Positions 9,724 through 49,094 of a stretch of 64,000 nt of DNA are shown here, one piece after another; position 1 is the stretch's first letter; each line of letters begins with the position of its first letter. This stretch comes from a bacterium. GTDB taxonomy: Bacteria > Sysuimicrobiota > Sysuimicrobiia > Sysuimicrobiales > Thermofontiviventaceae. Where the stretch lies: contig JAUQQG010000057.1 in the NCBI GenBank assembly GCA_030550015.1, positions 1-64,000 on the forward strand, written 5' to 3'. The notes under the pieces were generated by a model. The model saw only the letters and a program-made list of their open reading frames with translations, made no database searches and was not told the origin of the DNA. A program made the translations under genes and the position numbers.

Positions 9724-9758
9724 CGGGACCTGGTGTGGGAGGGGAGAGGGAGTTAAAC

Positions 9759-11114
9759 ATGGGCAAGCTCTTTGGGACCGATGGAATTCGGGGCATCGCG
9801 AACGCGGATCTGACACCTGAGCTCGCCTTCCAAGTGGGGCGTGCGGCAGCTTTCTGCCTCCTGCGGGGGCGCACGGGCCCCGTCCTCCTTGGCCGTGATA
9901 CCCGACTCTCTGGGTCGATGCTGGAAGCCTCCCTGGTAGCTGCGATCTGCTCGGTAGGGGGAGATGTGGCAAGGCTTGGGATCCTCCCAACTCCAGGGGT
10001 CGCCTATCTCACCAGAAGTTTCGGGGCGCCCTTTGGGGTAGTGATCTCAGCTTCCCATAACCCCATCGAGGATAATGGCATCAAATTTTTTGACCACGAT
10101 GGGTTCAAGCTTCCAGAGAGCCTGGAGGAGGAGATTGAAGCACTGACCACTGCGTCTCAGGAGTTTCCCAGAGCAACGGGCAGAGCGATTGGGCAAGCGT
10201 GGGATCTGCCCCAGGGCGAGGAGGAATATCTCTCGTACTTGCTTGCGCACGCGCGGGGGAAGCTTGAGGGATGGCGCATCGTGGTGGATTGCGCGTACGG
10301 AGCAAGCTACCGGATCGCCCCTCGGTTGTGGGAGGCGCTCGGGGCTCGCGTGATCGCTCTGCACGATGAACCGGATGGAGCGCGCATTAACGTGGCCTGC
10401 GGGTCCACCCACCCGGAAGTCCTCCAGAAGGCCGTCCGGGAGCATGGAGCTGACCTGGGGTTCTCCCACGATGGGGATGCTGACCGCGTCATCGCTGTGG
10501 ATGAGCGCGGAGAGGTCGTGGACGGGGACCGCATTCTGGGGATCTGTGCCTTGCACCTGCACGCGTTGGGCAGGCTTCCAGGGAAGCGCGTGGTTGGTAC
10601 CGTGATGAGCAACCTGGGCCTGGAGAAGGCATTGGCCAGGGCGGGGATTGTCCTGGAACGGACCAAGGTAGGCGACCGGTACGTTCTGGAGAAGATGCGC
10701 GAGCTCAACGCTCCCCTGGGAGGGGAGCAGAGCGGCCACATCATCTTTCTCGAATATGCAACGACGGGGGATGGCTTACTGACTGCTCTCCAGCTCGTGA
10801 ATGTCATGCTAGAAACGGGCAAACGGCTCTCTGACCTTGCTGCACCCATCGAGCGCTTCCCGCAGGTCCTCAAGAACGTGCGCGTTGCATCGCGTCCGGA
10901 GGTCGAGCGGGATGAGGAGATCCAAGAAGCTGTGCAGAGGTTCGCCTCTGCACTCGCCGGCCAGGGTAGGGTCCTTGTCCGCCCTTCGGGTACGGAGCCC
11001 GTTGTCCGGGTCATGGTCGAGTGTGAGCAAGAGGAGGAGGCAGAAGCCATTGCTGCCGAACTTGTAGAACTGATCCAGCGGAAGTACGGGGTAGAGATGG
11101 CGGGAGGGAGGTGA
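9759..11114 (+). CDS. glmM: phosphoglucosamine mutase
   Basis: GlmM (451 residues) converts glucosamine-6-phosphate to glucosamine-1-phosphate for UDP-GlcNAc. The phosphoserine loop is VVISASHNPIEDNG, the metal site is GFSHDGDADRVIAVD, and the C-terminal phosphate site is VRPSGTEPVVRVMVE. ATG 9759 has GAGGGAG upstream and gives the standard MGKLFGTDGIRG start. As the third gene of the c-di-AMP module it can also bind and inhibit CdaA. The transcript would continue into the glmS ribozyme and glmS. Confidence 0.96.
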   Translation: MGKLFGTDGIRGIANADLTPELAFQVGRAAAFCLLRGRTGPVLLGRDTRLSGSMLEASLVAAICSVGGDVARLGILPTPGVAYLTRSFGAPFGVVISASHNPIEDNGIKFFDHDGFKLPESLEEEIEALTTASQEFPRATGRAIGQAWDLPQGEEEYLSYLLAHARGKLEGWRIVVDCAYGASYRIAPRLWEALGARVIALHDEPDGARINVACGSTHPEVLQKAVREHGADLGFSHDGDADRVIAVDERGEVVDGDRILGICALHLHALGRLPGKRVVGTVMSNLGLEKALARAGIVLERTKVGDRYVLEKMRELNAPLGGEQSGHIIFLEYATTGDGLLTALQLVNVMLETGKRLSDLAAPIERFPQVLKNVRVASRPEVERDEEIQEAVQRFASALAGQGRVLVRPSGTEPVVRVMVECEQEEEAEAIAAELVELIQRKYGVEMAGGR

Positions 11115-11139
11115 GAACAAAGGTGCACGGCCCCGCTTG

Positions 11140-11481
11140 AGCGCCTGGACCCACCCATTGTGTCTGTTGCGTCGATCGCGTTGGTTGTGATCTTTGTTCT
11201 ACACACGTGCATGGCAACTCCGTTATTTCAAGACGGGTCCCCGGCAAACGTTCAAAGACTTTTGCCGGGGTACGATGGAACGCAACAGACGCGAGAAACG
11301 CAGTGAACACAGGTGGGTTGACGAGGGAGGGGTTGTGGGTTCCGTGGAGATCCAAGATTTTCACGGAACCCCATCGAACCATTCGGCGGATGCCCCTAGG
11401 CCCGGCCCGGGCCTCCTTGGGAAGGGGAGCGAGAAGGAAACCTACAAATCCCGGGGGTAACCCCGGGGACAAAGGGTTTCC
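11140..11481 (+). ncRNA. glmS ribozyme with an expanded P1 region
   Basis: The GlcN6P-activated self-cleaving ribozyme is recognised from its conserved core. It has the cleavage-site context A|GCGCC (A11140/G11141) and P1 strands GACCCACC (11148) and GGTGGGTT (11312). GTTGACGAGG (11317) and GGGGTT follow, then ATCGA (11373), TTCGGCGGATGCCCC (11382) and P4 (GGAAACC 11436 with GGTTTCC 11475, capped by a CCCGGGG/CCCCGGGG hairpin). Two insertions make it about 340 nt instead of the usual 150-200. P1 is extended by about 155 nt carrying an 11-bp stem, a CCCCGGCAAA hairpin and a repeat-family copy. A 10-bp hairpin (11337-11371) is inserted before ATCGA. Cleavage would destabilise the glmS message when GlcN6P is plentiful. 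Confidence 0.9.
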
Positions 11482-11693
11482 AGGGCACACAAGAGCGTGA
11501 GGCGTTTGGGGCAAGGAGGAGGGACTGCTCACTCCTCGCTCCTTCTCCGGCTGCAAAGGCTCCCAGCGGCACTGTGTACCTTCAGGGACCTTCTTCAGTT
11601 CTTGTGATGGACCCATCTCTGGGACCACGCCAAATCCAAGTTCTTCCACACAATATGCACGTATGTTGGTGACGACGCTGAAGGAGGTTCATC
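11482..11693 (+). other. spacer between glmS ribozyme and glmS start
   Basis: This is untranslated sequence of 212 bases. It includes GAGGAG (from 11515) and CTCCTC (from 11531), which can pair into a small hairpin, and a good ribosome site (GAAGGAGG) before glmS. No other element is recognised. Confidence 0.4.
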
Positions 11694-13520
11694 ATGTGTG
11701 GGATTATGGGCTACATTGGAGGACGGGACGCCCTTCCCATCCTCTTGGATGGGTTAAGGCGGCTGGAATACCGTGGATATGATTCCGCGGGAGTTGCCGT
11801 CTATACCGGGGAGAGGTTGGAGATTCGGAAAGCGGCCGGCAAGCTGCGCCGCCTTGTGGAGATGGTCTCGGCCGCCCCGGTACAGGGAACGGTGGGGATT
11901 GGACATACCCGCTGGGCCACGCACGGAAATCCTACCGACTATAATGCACACCCGCACAGCGATTGTAGAGGCCACATTGTGGTGATCCACAACGGGATCA
12001 TTGAGAACTTCCTGGAGCTCAAGGAGGAGCTCCACCGCCGGGGACATCGCTTCCAGTCCGAGACGGATACAGAGGTCCTCGCCCACCTCATCGAGGAGGC
12101 CTACGAGGGGGATCTCGAGCGCGCTGTCCGCCATGCCATCTCCAGGGCCAGGGGGGCGTACGCCATCGTCGTGCTCTCCTCGCATGAACCTGATAAGCTT
12201 ATCGCCTGTCGGCAGATCAGCCCATTGATTGTGGGCCTGGGGGACGGGGAGACCTGGCTGGCCTCGGACATCCCTGCTCTCCTCCCCTATACGCGCAAGG
12301 TCATGGTGATCGAAGACGGTGAGATGGCCACGATCACCAGGGACGGCGTTCGCATTACCACCCTCAACGGGGAAGTAGTAGAGAAAACCCCCATCCATGT
12401 GACCTGGGATGCCGAGATGGCTGAGCGAGGTGGGTATCCCCACTTCATGCTGAAGGAGATCCACGAGCAGCCCCGGGCTCTCCAGGAGACCCTCATGGGC
12501 CGCTTGGACCACGCTGGTCAGATCAGCCTTGATGGGGTTTCCCTCCCCGATATATTCGTGGAGAGGCTGGAGAAGGTCTGGCTCGTGGCATGCGGGACCG
12601 CCTACCATGCCGGGCTTGTCGGAAAATGGCTCCTCGAGCACCTGAGCAGGATCCCAGCGGAAGCGGACCTCGCCTCCGAGCTGCGGTATCGGGACCCCCT
12701 GGTCTTTGGGACGAATCTCACTGTGGCCATCAGTCAGTCGGGGGAGACCGCGGACACCTTGGCGGCGGTCAGGGAGATGAAAGCCCGGGGGTCGCGGATC
12801 TTGGCCATTACCAACGTGGTCGGGAGCACCCTCACCCGTGAGGCGGACGATGTTCTCTATATTCGCGCTGGACCAGAGATCGCCGTGGCCTCCACGAAAG
12901 CTTACCTGACCATGCTCGTTGCCTTGACCATGCTGGCCATCGAGCTAGGCAGGCGACGTAAGGCAATCCCCGACGAACGGCTGAACGCCTTGCTTTATGG
13001 CCTCCGCGAGCTCCCCGGGAAGGCGCAGGATGTCCTCCGCAGGGAGCCAGAAGTCTTGGAGCTAGCGAAGCGGTACGCGCACTGTCAGGATATCTTCTTC
13101 ATCGGCAGGGGCCTGGACTATGCCGTCGCCATGGAAGGGTCCCTCAAACTCAAGGAGATCTCCTATGTCCACTCCGAGGCTCTGGCTGCAGGGGAACTGA
13201 AGCACGGAACTCTGGCGCTTGTTACAGATGGGGTTCCTGTCTTCGCCCTGTGCACGCAACGACACGTGCGGGAGAAAATGCTGAGTAACATCCAGGAGGT
13301 TAAGGCGCGCGGAGCCATGGTTGTTGCTGTGGCCTACGAAGATGATCGGGAGGTGGCATCCCTCGTAGACCATGTGATTCCCATCCCGCCGGTGGACGAT
13401 CTCCTGAGTCCCATCCTGGCCATTATCCCGCTCCAGCTCTTCGCGTATTACGTGGCGCGGGAGCGTGGTCACGACATTGACCAGCCGCGGAACCTGGCGA
13501 AGAGTGTGACGGTAGAGTAA
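11694..13520 (+). CDS. glmS: glutamine--fructose-6-phosphate aminotransferase
   Basis: GlmS (608 residues) makes glucosamine-6-phosphate from fructose-6-phosphate and glutamine, the entry step of amino-sugar synthesis. The N-terminal Ntn glutaminase has its nucleophile at Cys2 (MCGIMGYIGG). Two SIS isomerase domains follow (VAISQSGETADT, and GRGLDYAVAMEGSLKLKEI). The C-terminal NLAKSVTVE carries the catalytic Lys. The start has GAAGGAGG eight bases upstream. Its product is the ligand of the ribozyme in its own 5' region, a direct feedback loop. The product also feeds GlmM, encoded just upstream. Confidence 0.97.
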   Translation: MCGIMGYIGGRDALPILLDGLRRLEYRGYDSAGVAVYTGERLEIRKAAGKLRRLVEMVSAAPVQGTVGIGHTRWATHGNPTDYNAHPHSDCRGHIVVIHNGIIENFLELKEELHRRGHRFQSETDTEVLAHLIEEAYEGDLERAVRHAISRARGAYAIVVLSSHEPDKLIACRQISPLIVGLGDGETWLASDIPALLPYTRKVMVIEDGEMATITRDGVRITTLNGEVVEKTPIHVTWDAEMAERGGYPHFMLKEIHEQPRALQETLMGRLDHAGQISLDGVSLPDIFVERLEKVWLVACGTAYHAGLVGKWLLEHLSRIPAEADLASELRYRDPLVFGTNLTVAISQSGETADTLAAVREMKARGSRILAITNVVGSTLTREADDVLYIRAGPEIAVASTKAYLTMLVALTMLAIELGRRRKAIPDERLNALLYGLRELPGKAQDVLRREPEVLELAKRYAHCQDIFFIGRGLDYAVAMEGSLKLKEISYVHSEALAAGELKHGTLALVTDGVPVFALCTQRHVREKMLSNIQEVKARGAMVVAVAYEDDREVASLVDHVIPIPPVDDLLSPILAIIPLQLFAYYVARERGHDIDQPRNLAKSVTVE

Positions 13521-19450: not shown

Positions 19451-20452
19451 ATGCAGCTCGGTAGGTTCCCTCGTGTGAAACTTGCCTCCCTTCCTACTCC
19501 ACTGGAAGAGATGCCGCGGCTCACCGAGATCCTTGGAGGTCCCCGGCTATTGATCAAGCGCGATGATCTCACCGGCTTGGCCATGGGCGGGAACAAGGCC
19601 CGTAAGCTCGAGTTTCTCCTTGGGGAAGCCAGGTCCCGCGGGGCAGATGTTGTGGTGACGACGGGAGCCTTGCAATCGAACCACGCCAGGATGACCGCGG
19701 CGGCCGCCCAGAAGCTTGGGTTAAGGGCCATCCTCGTGTTGAGTGGGGAAGAGCCAGCGGAATATCAAGGGAACCTCCTCCTAGACGCGTTGTTTGGCGC
19801 GGAGGTTCGGGTGATCCAGAGCGAGGAGGAGTACATTCTCCACGCCACCATGGAGGATGTGGCACGGGAACTTTCCCGGGAGGGACATCGTCCCTACCTG
19901 ATTCCCCTCGGTGGATCCACGGGCCTCGGTGCGTGTGCGTATATCGAAGCAGCCCTGGAGCTTCTCCTCCAAGCCAATGCCATGGGTGTGGCTGTGGACG
20001 CCATTGTGCACGCGACCAGCTCCGGAGGAACCCAAGCAGGCCTGTTCGTGGGTACGAAGTTGACCCAGGCACACATCAAGGTCGTGGGGATCAGCGCAGG
20101 GCCGCCGCGGGAGGTGGTGGAACGGAGAGTCGCCAGTATCGTGGAGGAAGTAGCCAGGCTCCTCCAGTTGGACCTAAGGGCTCATCCTGACGATCTGATC
20201 GTTCTTGATGGGTACGTGGGCGATGGGTACGGGATTCCTACGCCCCAGTGCATCGACGCGATTCGTCTCCTCGCTCGCACCGAAGGGATCCTCCTGGACC
20301 CTGTCTATACAGGGAAGGCGATGGCAGGCCTCATCGATCTCATCCGGCAAGGTCATTTTGATCCTTCCCAAACTGTCGTGTTCTGGCACACTGGAGGGAT
20401 CCCAGCGCTATTCGCCCATGCGAGGGCGTTGAGCGCCCCTAAAGAATTTTGA
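19451..20452 (+). CDS. dcyD: D-cysteine desulfhydrase-like PLP enzyme
   Basis: This 333-residue enzyme of the ACC deaminase/D-cysteine desulfhydrase family uses PLP. The Lys lies in MGGNKARKLEFLLGEA, and the phosphate-binding region in STGLGACAYIEAALEL and SSGGTQAGLFVG. Family members degrade D-cysteine to pyruvate, H2S and ammonia, or act on 3-chloro-D-alanine or cysteate. Substrate cannot be fixed from sequence. I start at ATG 19451, which follows GTGGAGGTG and gives MQLGRFPRVKLASLPTPLEE. It stands between a hypothetical gene and a C26 peptidase. Confidence 0.85.
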   Translation: MQLGRFPRVKLASLPTPLEEMPRLTEILGGPRLLIKRDDLTGLAMGGNKARKLEFLLGEARSRGADVVVTTGALQSNHARMTAAAAQKLGLRAILVLSGEEPAEYQGNLLLDALFGAEVRVIQSEEEYILHATMEDVARELSREGHRPYLIPLGGSTGLGACAYIEAALELLLQANAMGVAVDAIVHATSSGGTQAGLFVGTKLTQAHIKVVGISAGPPREVVERRVASIVEEVARLLQLDLRAHPDDLIVLDGYVGDGYGIPTPQCIDAIRLLARTEGILLDPVYTGKAMAGLIDLIRQGHFDPSQTVVFWHTGGIPALFAHARALSAPKEF

Positions 20453-20516
20453 CAAGATTTTGCTGGGGCCTGGTCGTCGCTACAGACATGTGGCGGGGTA
20501 GTGAGAGGGGTGAGGT

Positions 20517-47144: not shown

Positions 47145-48980
47145 ATGAATGTCCTGGTCATCGGTTCTGGGGGTAGGGAACATGCCCTGGTCTGGGCACT
47201 AAGCCGGAGCCCCCGGATCAAAAAGATCTACTGCTGTCCAGGGAACCCCGGGATCGCTGCTCTCGCTGAAACCCTCCCCATCGCCCCCACAGATATTCCC
47301 GCCCTTGTCCGGGGGGCAGAGGAACTTTCCATCGACCTCACCGTGGTTGGGCCGGAAGCACCGTTGGTTTTGGGCATCGTGGACGCCTTTCAGGAGAAGG
47401 GTTTGCGGATCTTCGGCCCTACGGCAGCCGCAAGCCTCCTTGAGGGGAGCAAGGTCTTCGCGAAAATGCTGATGCGCCGCTACGGGATCCCCACGGCACA
47501 GTTCTGGACGTTTTCCGACCCCCTAAAAGCAAAGGCCTTTGTCCGCAAGGCCCATCGTCCCCTTGTGGTGAAGGCAGATGGCCTTGCCGCAGGGAAGGGG
47601 GCGATCGTCGCCATGACGCCGGAAGAAGGGGAGCGCGCCGTCGGCATGCTCATGGAAGAACGCATCTTCGGGGAGAGCGGTGCACAGGTCGTCATTGAGG
47701 AGTTCCTTGAAGGAGAGGAAGTAAGCTTCTTTGCCCTTTCCGATGGGAGGACCGTCCTCCCTCTCCTGGCGGTCCGGGACCATAAGCGCCTGCTGGACGG
47801 AGACCGCGGCCCGAACACAGGCGGGATGGGCGCGTACGCACCTGTCCCCTTCGTAGACGGAGCCCTGTCTGAGCGGATGATGCGAGAGGTCGTGGTTCCC
47901 ACAGTGGAGGCGATGAACAAAGAGGGGCGGCCCTTTACGGGGGTTCTCTATGCTGGTCTCATGCTCACCGAGGACGGCCCCAAGGTTTTGGAGTTTAATG
48001 TGCGCTTTGGCGATCCCGAGGCCCAGGTCCTCCTCCCGCTGCTCCAGACCGATCTCCTGGACCTGTGCGAGGCGGTTGTAGATGGCCAGCTGGATCGCCT
48101 CTCCGTGGTCTGGAAACCTGGGGCAGCGGCCTGTGTGGTCATGGCCTCAAGAGGGTATCCGGATCACGTGGAAACCGGGAGCATCATCGAGGGGCTGGAG
48201 GGCGAACAGCCTCCTGGGGTTTTGATCTTCCATGCTGGGACGGGATGGAAGGAGGGTAGGCTCGTTGCAACAGGCGGAAGGGTCCTGAATGTGGTGGGGC
48301 TTGGAGAAAACCTCCAAGAGGCCGTAGAGCGGGCCTACCAGGGCGTTGGGAGGATCCGGTTCGAGGGGATGCAGTACAGAAAGGATATCGGGTCAATCGC
48401 GTTCATGGGGTCTAATGCGTCTATGGAATCGCCTGGTTCCTTGGGTCATGGAGTCGTTGAGCCAACGGGTCTCTCAGACCGCAGACCTGATGAACCCGAT
48501 AAGCCCGCCCTGGTTGGGATCGTGCTAGGGAGCGATTCTGATGCCCCCGTGATGGAGGAGACGGCCAGGATGCTCGAAAAATTCGGGATCCCCTATGAAG
48601 TGACCATCGCTTCCGCCCATCGGTCTCCACGCAGGGCTCTCGCTTACGCTGAGGAAGCGGCGGCGCGTGGCCTGAAGGTCCTCATCGCGGCGGCTGGAGG
48701 AGCTGCACACCTTCCCGGGGTCCTGGCTTCCAGCACCCCACTCCCGGTCATTGGGGTCCCTATGGAGGCGACCCCGCTAGGAGGGCTGGATTCCCTCCTC
48801 TCGATGGTCCAGATGCCGGGTGGGGTCCCTGTTGCTGTGGTCAGCATAGGGAAGGCTGGCGCTCGCAATGCTGCCCTCCTTGCGGCTCGGATCCTAGGCA
48901 CCACAGACGTGGAAATCCGCAGGCGCGTGGAGGCGTACATGGCAGAACTGGCAGCGGAGATTGCATCGAAGCGTGTATAG
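47145..48980 (+). CDS. purD-purE: PurD-PurE fusion: GAR synthetase / class I N5-CAIR mutase
   Basis: This is a 611-residue fusion. Residues 1-422 are PurD (NVLVIGSGGREHALVWAL; ATP-grasp KADGLAAGKGAIVAM, GMGAYAP, FNVRFGDPEAQVLLP; ending FEGMQYRKDIGSI). PurD makes glycinamide ribonucleotide. Residues about 455-611 are PurE (IVLGSDSDAPVMEETARMLE; SAHRSPRRAL; AAGGAAHLPGVLAS; LLSMVQMPGGVPVAVVSIG), class I by motif, which needs N5-CAIR from PurK. The linker of about 33 residues is encoded by repeat-family DNA. PurD-PurE joined in one chain is unusual. The domains act at non-adjacent pathway steps. It is the first gene of the purine operon. Confidence 0.92.
   Translation: MNVLVIGSGGREHALVWALSRSPRIKKIYCCPGNPGIAALAETLPIAPTDIPALVRGAEELSIDLTVVGPEAPLVLGIVDAFQEKGLRIFGPTAAASLLEGSKVFAKMLMRRYGIPTAQFWTFSDPLKAKAFVRKAHRPLVVKADGLAAGKGAIVAMTPEEGERAVGMLMEERIFGESGAQVVIEEFLEGEEVSFFALSDGRTVLPLLAVRDHKRLLDGDRGPNTGGMGAYAPVPFVDGALSERMMREVVVPTVEAMNKEGRPFTGVLYAGLMLTEDGPKVLEFNVRFGDPEAQVLLPLLQTDLLDLCEAVVDGQLDRLSVVWKPGAAACVVMASRGYPDHVETGSIIEGLEGEQPPGVLIFHAGTGWKEGRLVATGGRVLNVVGLGENLQEAVERAYQGVGRIRFEGMQYRKDIGSIAFMGSNASMESPGSLGHGVVEPTGLSDRRPDEPDKPALVGIVLGSDSDAPVMEETARMLEKFGIPYEVTIASAHRSPRRALAYAEEAAARGLKVLIAAAGGAAHLPGVLASSTPLPVIGVPMEATPLGGLDSLLSMVQMPGGVPVAVVSIGKAGARNAALLAARILGTTDVEIRRRVEAYMAELAAEIASKRV
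48395..48505 (+). repeat. repeat-derived DNA encoding the PurD-PurE linker
   Basis: AATCGCGTTCATGGGGTCTA (from 48395) resembles the GCGTTCATTGCGTTTCT repeats at 48981-49094. CCTGATGAACCCGATAAGCC (48486-48505) matches CCTGATGAACACGATAAACC at 41786-41805 in 18 of 20 positions. Both families are otherwise found at gene boundaries. Confidence 0.55.
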
Positions 48981-49094
48981 CGTTTCTCGCGTTCATTGCG
49001 TTTCTCGCGTTCATTGCGTTTCTTGCGTTTTGAAATGAAGTTCAACAAACGCGATCAACGCAAGAGACGCGATGAACGCCATCAACGCGAAAGG
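48981..49094 (+). repeat. GCGTTTCTCGCGTTCATT repeats and long inverted repeat between purDE and purA
   Basis: An 18-base unit GCGTTTCTCGCGTTCATT is repeated about two and a half times from 48980. The last left arm (49007-49029) pairs with 49057-49079 over 23 positions, including two G-U pairs, around a 27-base loop. A related sequence (ACGCAACAGACGCGAGAAAC) occurs at 11280 in the glmS ribozyme. The hairpin may tune expression between purDE and purA. Confidence 0.75.

Follow-up and report, generated by a model that had tools for sequence, protein, structure and literature searches.

Positions 11140-11481 on the + strand of the window (the whole 64,000-nt stretch of DNA analysed here) are a glmS self-cleaving riboswitch (RF00234), i.e., a member of the family of self-cutting RNA switches that control sugar synthesis for the bacterial cell wall, and its P1 arm is lengthened by 156 nt of DNA from two repeat families of the genome. 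The preferred reading, to which a probability of roughly 0.8 is assigned, is that this is an ordinary glmS ribozyme, probably working in the standard way, with a tolerant P1 arm that takes up genome repeats recurrently.

Ribozyme identity and boundaries

A cmscan search of positions 10900-11900 returned RF00234 with a score of 44.9 bits (E = 4.8e-9; curated gathering score 37). The match spans the whole model and is the only RF00234 match found in a genome-wide search; the best relatives reach 89 bits, about twice its score. Because the insert is too long for the P1 of the model, the Rfam alignment begins only at 11260 and puts the 5' strand of P1 in the wrong place; the ribozyme in fact starts at 11140, with the 5' strand of P1 at 11148-11155. 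Long P1 arms can lead covariance searches to misplace the cleavage site, and this case serves as a warning. The core features are as follows:

11140-11481, + strand: glmS ribozyme, 342 nt, cleavage site A11140/G11141 to the end of P4 (RF00234 and core motifs read from the sequence)
11142-11145, + strand: 5' strand of P2.2, CGCC, partner GGCG at 11385-11388 (sequence; known glmS fold)
11320-11326, + strand: conserved GACGAGG, of which CGA 11322-11324 pairs with TCG 11374-11376 in P2.1 (sequence)
11373-11392, + strand: core strand ATCGAACCATTCGGCGGATG, contributing to P2.1, P2a and P2.2 (sequence, RF00234 match)
11436-11481, + strand: P4 domain with GTAA tetraloop and AAA/ACAAAG internal loop (sequence, RF00234 match)

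The cleavage context AGCGCC is read at 11140-11145 (A11140 followed by GCGCC), ATCGA at 11373-11377, TTCGGCGGATG at 11382-11392 and P2 at 11328-11332/11393-11397. Strands able to form P2, P2.1 and P2.2 are thus accompanied by the UUCGGCGGAUG strand, by the internal-loop purines and tetraloop of P4, and by a position upstream of glmS. The original prediction had claimed a clear glmS core in a ribozyme of about twice the normal length and had proposed a covariance search with RF00234 as a check; the search was significant, the motifs were located, and the 342 nt compare with 158-221 nt in most relatives, the excess being due to the approximately 156 extra nt in P1 and to a unique and very stable hairpin between P2 and the AUCGA strand.

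P1 base helix and its covariation

11148-11155, + strand: 5' strand of the P1 base helix, GACCCACC, partner at 11312-11319 (8/8 pairs; covaries in 21 distinct relatives)
11312-11319, + strand: 3' strand of the P1 base helix, GGTGGGTT (8/8 pairs; covariation)

AGCGCC occurs at 26 sites on the + strand of the window, and 8/8 pairing with the 3' strand is possible from 11140 alone. The helix was compared across a phylum sample of 43 genomes from one order, which yielded 30 ribozyme matches; the organism itself is represented by one fragmented assembly, and the comparison is with genomes from outside its family. AGCGCC and the P1 helix are present in 30 of the 30 matches. For the count, both strands were excised by motif and then joined without the loop. 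Standard pairs fill 98.8% of the cells of the 8-bp base (30 matches, 21 distinct P1 sequences), a figure somewhat favoured by the choice of the best-pairing upstream AGCGCC site as the 5' strand. Among the 21 distinct relatives the covariation score is 0.96, versus 0.23 in shuffles, and double-sided changes, which are not a consequence of that choice, number 53 versus 15. Sliding the partner strand by any offset abolishes the pairing signal. Since the core motifs and this covarying base are intact, cleavage dependent on glucosamine-6-phosphate at A11140/G11141 is likely, and the ribozyme is probably real and active.

Second insertion and ribozyme integrity

11336-11372, + strand: additional hairpin of about 15 bp, located between P2 and the AUCGA strand (z = -6.1 versus dinucleotide shuffles)

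A hairpin of 10 bp had been predicted before ATCGA; the hairpin is real, and its length is about 15 bp. Its self match alone was significant in a genome search, and it was rejected as a genomic repeat for want of a second significant copy. Most relatives from the order that have an extra hairpin place it after UCGA instead. A possible parallel is offered by two Anaerolineales glmS ribozymes (L077 and L085) in which P1 is very short, spanning 17 nt, and the P2-P2a region holds an additional 52 nt; these may include a hairpin before AUCGA, while Rfam aligns the 52 nt inside P2a. Compared with the P1 insert, the hairpin at 11336-11372 sits nearer the core, and it might delay folding.

That the insertions have inactivated the ribozyme and left a decaying relic is quite improbable. 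There are two insertions, one of them near the core, and the closest named GlmS relative (L041, 75% identical) has no glmS ribozyme and just a short interval between glmM and glmS, the switch having been lost there or never present, which may be taken as a sign that loss happens. Against this, the core motifs and the P1 base are intact and P4 has retained its GTAA loop, whereas core bases would be expected to go first. Regarding GlmS more broadly, the protein matches come from uncultured genomes labelled Armatimonadota, ANGP1 and HR32.

Size and fold of the P1 extension

11156-11311, + strand: P1 extension, 156 nt, two genomic repeat families (repeat searches, folding, self-match)

Measured from GCGCC to GACGAGG, the P1 span is 174 nt here; in the other 29 phylum matches it is 22-44 nt (23 genomes), 64-69 nt (four) or 103 nt (two). 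The predicted interruption of P1 by about 155 nt agrees with the 156 nt enclosed by the base helix, and the base helix together with the sequence reading supports the claim that the insertions are peripheral. The extension folds into a long imperfect helix, the best fold of the whole 177-nt P1 region having -76.4 kcal/mol. A second stem of 11 bp (GTCTGTTGCGT/ACGCAACAGAC), also predicted, exists at 11162-11172/11280-11290, but it is not the favoured register (probability approximately 0.03; best fold containing it -74.2 kcal/mol). The arms are arrays of 9-nt repeats able to pair in several registers, and beyond the P1 base helix they are somewhat more complementary than chance would give (z = -3.2; equalled by 11 of 2000 shuffles).

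Repeat families

11159-11191, + strand: 5' arm of the P1 extension, an inverted array of degenerate 9-nt units of family 2 (9-nt self-match 0.62, shuffle p = 0.0006; neither this p value nor the next is blind, the 9-nt period having been picked after family 2 was seen)
11280-11311, + strand: 3' arm of the P1 extension, 9-nt units ACGCAACAG/ACGCGAGAA/ACGCAGTGA of family 2 (9-nt self-match 0.64, p = 0.0006)
48980-49088, + strand: further family-2 element, facing arrays of 9-nt units with 46-nt arms 80% complementary (genome search, sequence)
11220-11273, + strand: REP/BIME-like repeat of family 1, right half (spacer, hairpin B and TAC), hairpin A absent (best copies 83-93% identical)
11239-11270, + strand: hairpin B of the family-1 repeat, CCCCGGCAAACGTTCAAAGACTTTTGCCGGGG (sequence reading)

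The CCCCGGCAAA hairpin and the repeat-family copy foreseen in the insert are both present, and the repeat was matched across the genome. Positions 11220-11273 match at least 30 places, the best at 83-93% identity; the 40 matches listed, some of them weak, represent 38 places, as the overlapping loci L038 and L040 show two copies twice. The full element, read by eye from the copies (automatic A/S/B labels are loose), consists of TAAGTAACCCCAGCAAAATCTCTTGTCGAGATTTTGCTGGGG, the spacer CCCCGTTATTTCAAGAGGGG and CCCCGGCAAAAGTCAAAAGACTTTTGCCGGGGTACTTA, i.e., two hairpins with inverted termini, of which the ribozyme copy retains the spacer and the right hairpin. A partial copy of the left hairpin lies at 20440-20467 of the window. 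The family was absent from the 42 same-order genomes searched. Among the copies scanned, that in the ribozyme is the only one found inside a known structured RNA, the others lying clear of any Rfam match; at L033 a tRNA starts approximately 20 nt past one copy. The repeat was rejected as an intrinsic terminator, hairpin B having no following T-run, and a terminator-like site at 11174-11192 in the 5' arm was discounted (1 observed, shuffle mean 0.7).

The second family, which forms the P1 arms, had not been mentioned in the original prediction. Its unit, a degenerate ACGC[GA]ANNN, occurs in both P1 arms and at roughly 20 places across the genome; in reverse complement the units of the 5' arm read ACGCGATCG/ACGCAACAG. 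The 3' arm matches a family-2 array at 48991-49020 in a genome search (E = 0.0018 to 0.0026). The link of family 2 to P1 is weaker than that of family 1.

P1 arms in relatives

P1 also spans more than 100 nt in G019 and G023, the two other such cases, and consists there of 7-nt and 8-nt units, respectively, each belonging to a repeat family of its own genome (68 and 46 matches, counts which take in both strands of the same palindromic places). These families are unrelated to one another and to those of the window, and the three longest P1 arms among the 30 are accordingly repeats from unrelated families. At 28.4 bits the G019 ribozyme (L029) falls below the cut-off, but its core motifs are complete and a GlmS reading frame lies downstream of it. 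The P1 arms of 65-69 nt in G009, G007 and G034, which are the arms of the 64-69-nt class searched with their own sequence (that is, all save G003), are single-copy in their own genomes. G007, G034 and G023 belong to one genus and have differing P1 arms; P1 turnover is therefore fast.

Gene context

9735-11114, + strand: glmM, phosphoglucosamine mutase, ending 25 nt before the cleavage site (PGM_PMM I-IV, Pfam)
11694-13520, + strand: glmS, with an AAGGAGG ribosome site at 11681-11687 (SIS and GATase domains, Pfam)

The gene order by Pfam is cdaA (DAC domain), cdaR (YbbR), glmM and glmS, in keeping with the predicted position between glmM and glmS in a c-di-AMP module. As the ribozyme begins 25 nt past glmM and no sigma-70-type promoter was found between glmM and glmS, it probably lies within a glmM-glmS transcript.

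In one family of the same order, a fructose-1,6-bisphosphatase gene (PF01950) stands directly 3' of the glmS ribozyme in the three genomes checked (e.g., L014 1791-2969 and L025 214-1563, loci also named L045 and L046), and glmS was seen next, giving the order ribozyme-fbp-glmS, in two of the three. Other members of that family likewise have no glmS within 800 nt of the ribozyme. Fructose-1,6-bisphosphatase makes fructose-6-phosphate, a substrate of GlmS.

Origin and role of the P1 repeats

Published mutation data describe P1 and P2 as purely structural and P1 as tolerant of many deletions (PMC7125110); L4 docks on P1 (PMC11602151); and unconserved stem-loop insertions are common in riboswitches (PMC2258182). 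Given a structural, deletion-tolerant P1 and the frequency of such insertions, the ribozyme should tolerate a P1 that grows outward from the core. In the proposed mechanism, glucosamine-6-phosphate would bind a preformed core as cofactor, the RNA would cut itself at A11140/G11141 and glmS expression would fall, while P1, a helix lying outside the active site, would have a structural role. The long imperfect helix would first have arisen from two 9-nt-unit arrays in inverted orientation, and the REP/BIME-like hairpin element would then have been inserted at or near its tip, an order suggested by the nesting. Most likely the repeats are passengers that are tolerated since they lengthen P1 in the direction away from the core. 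With unrelated repeat families in P1 of at least two relatives, P1 seems to be a permissive site for genome repeats, and unrelated repeats at the same place point to tolerance rather than to a conserved second function.

The original prediction had allowed for a second sensing or processing function, and neither part is supported. That P1 harbours a tandem riboswitch, or a second one for sensing, is barely credible: size alone favours it, whereas the insert is repeat DNA, and a search for a second riboswitch or aptamer across 10900-11900 brought up no further Rfam family at E = 1 or below. The alternative that the repeats provide a site for processing or binding in the leader, and so change what becomes of the glmM-glmS mRNA after cleavage, is unlikely; RNase III might, for instance, target the long helix, or a barrier of the REP type might stop exonucleases. 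The folding energy of about -76 kcal/mol and the hypothesised effect of REP/BIME elements on mRNA stability (PMC3733652) speak for it; however, the arm is not conserved, P1 arms in relatives being short or unrelated, the same repeats sit in many other contexts of the genome, and there is no second Rfam family.

The repeats could in principle have been recruited instead of tolerated. It is doubtful that P1 of the glmS ribozyme is a preferred recruiting site in this phylum, each genome using its own repeat family and the arm being functional; in such a case facing repeat arrays would supply a strong self-complementary P1 that nucleates folding, as has been argued for trnL P6b. Under the preferred reading of a tolerant arm, the locus presents a catalytic riboswitch in which genomic repeats, mobile or amplified, make up the variable arm, as has come about independently in several lineages. 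It would thus be a natural experiment on the amount and the location of foreign structure that a ribozyme can accommodate, and it points to a possible source of the variable insertions, so far unexplained, in riboswitch families.

Comparison with known systems

With glmS ribozymes of RF00234 the locus shares the core motifs, the double pseudoknot pairing potential, P1, P4 and the place upstream of glmS; it differs in the 174-nt P1 span of interspersed repeats and in the extra hairpin between P2 and AUCGA. A literature search, outside which the main survey of glmS variants (McCown et al. 2011) lies, found no description of repeats within glmS ribozymes, which suggests that the repeat-built P1 is a variant of the known glmS ribozyme apparently undescribed in the literature searched.

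Like REP, BIME and REPIN elements (PMC3733652, PMC3116915), family 1 consists of interspersed palindromes in many copies, often paired in inverted orientation as two hairpins with inverted termini (TAAGTA...TACTTA). In contrast to them, the GTAG tetranucleotide tag was not found in the repeat, and a Y1_Tnp (RAYT-type, PF01797) transposase was not found in this 94% complete assembly, and a RAYT transposase was accordingly set aside as its mover; the family is therefore termed REP-like rather than REP. A looser parallel is the pneumococcal BOX repeat located between two T-box motifs (PMC3049150).

The P6b stem of the trnL group I intron in cyanobacteria comes closest to the P1 arm; it is formed by facing arrays of a short degenerate 7-nt repeat and has undergone repeated shifts of repeat class (PMC4476775). 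Both are peripheral stems of a ribozyme built from facing short-repeat arrays; the present case concerns another ribozyme, its unit is 9 nt long, and a second, REP-like element is nested inside.
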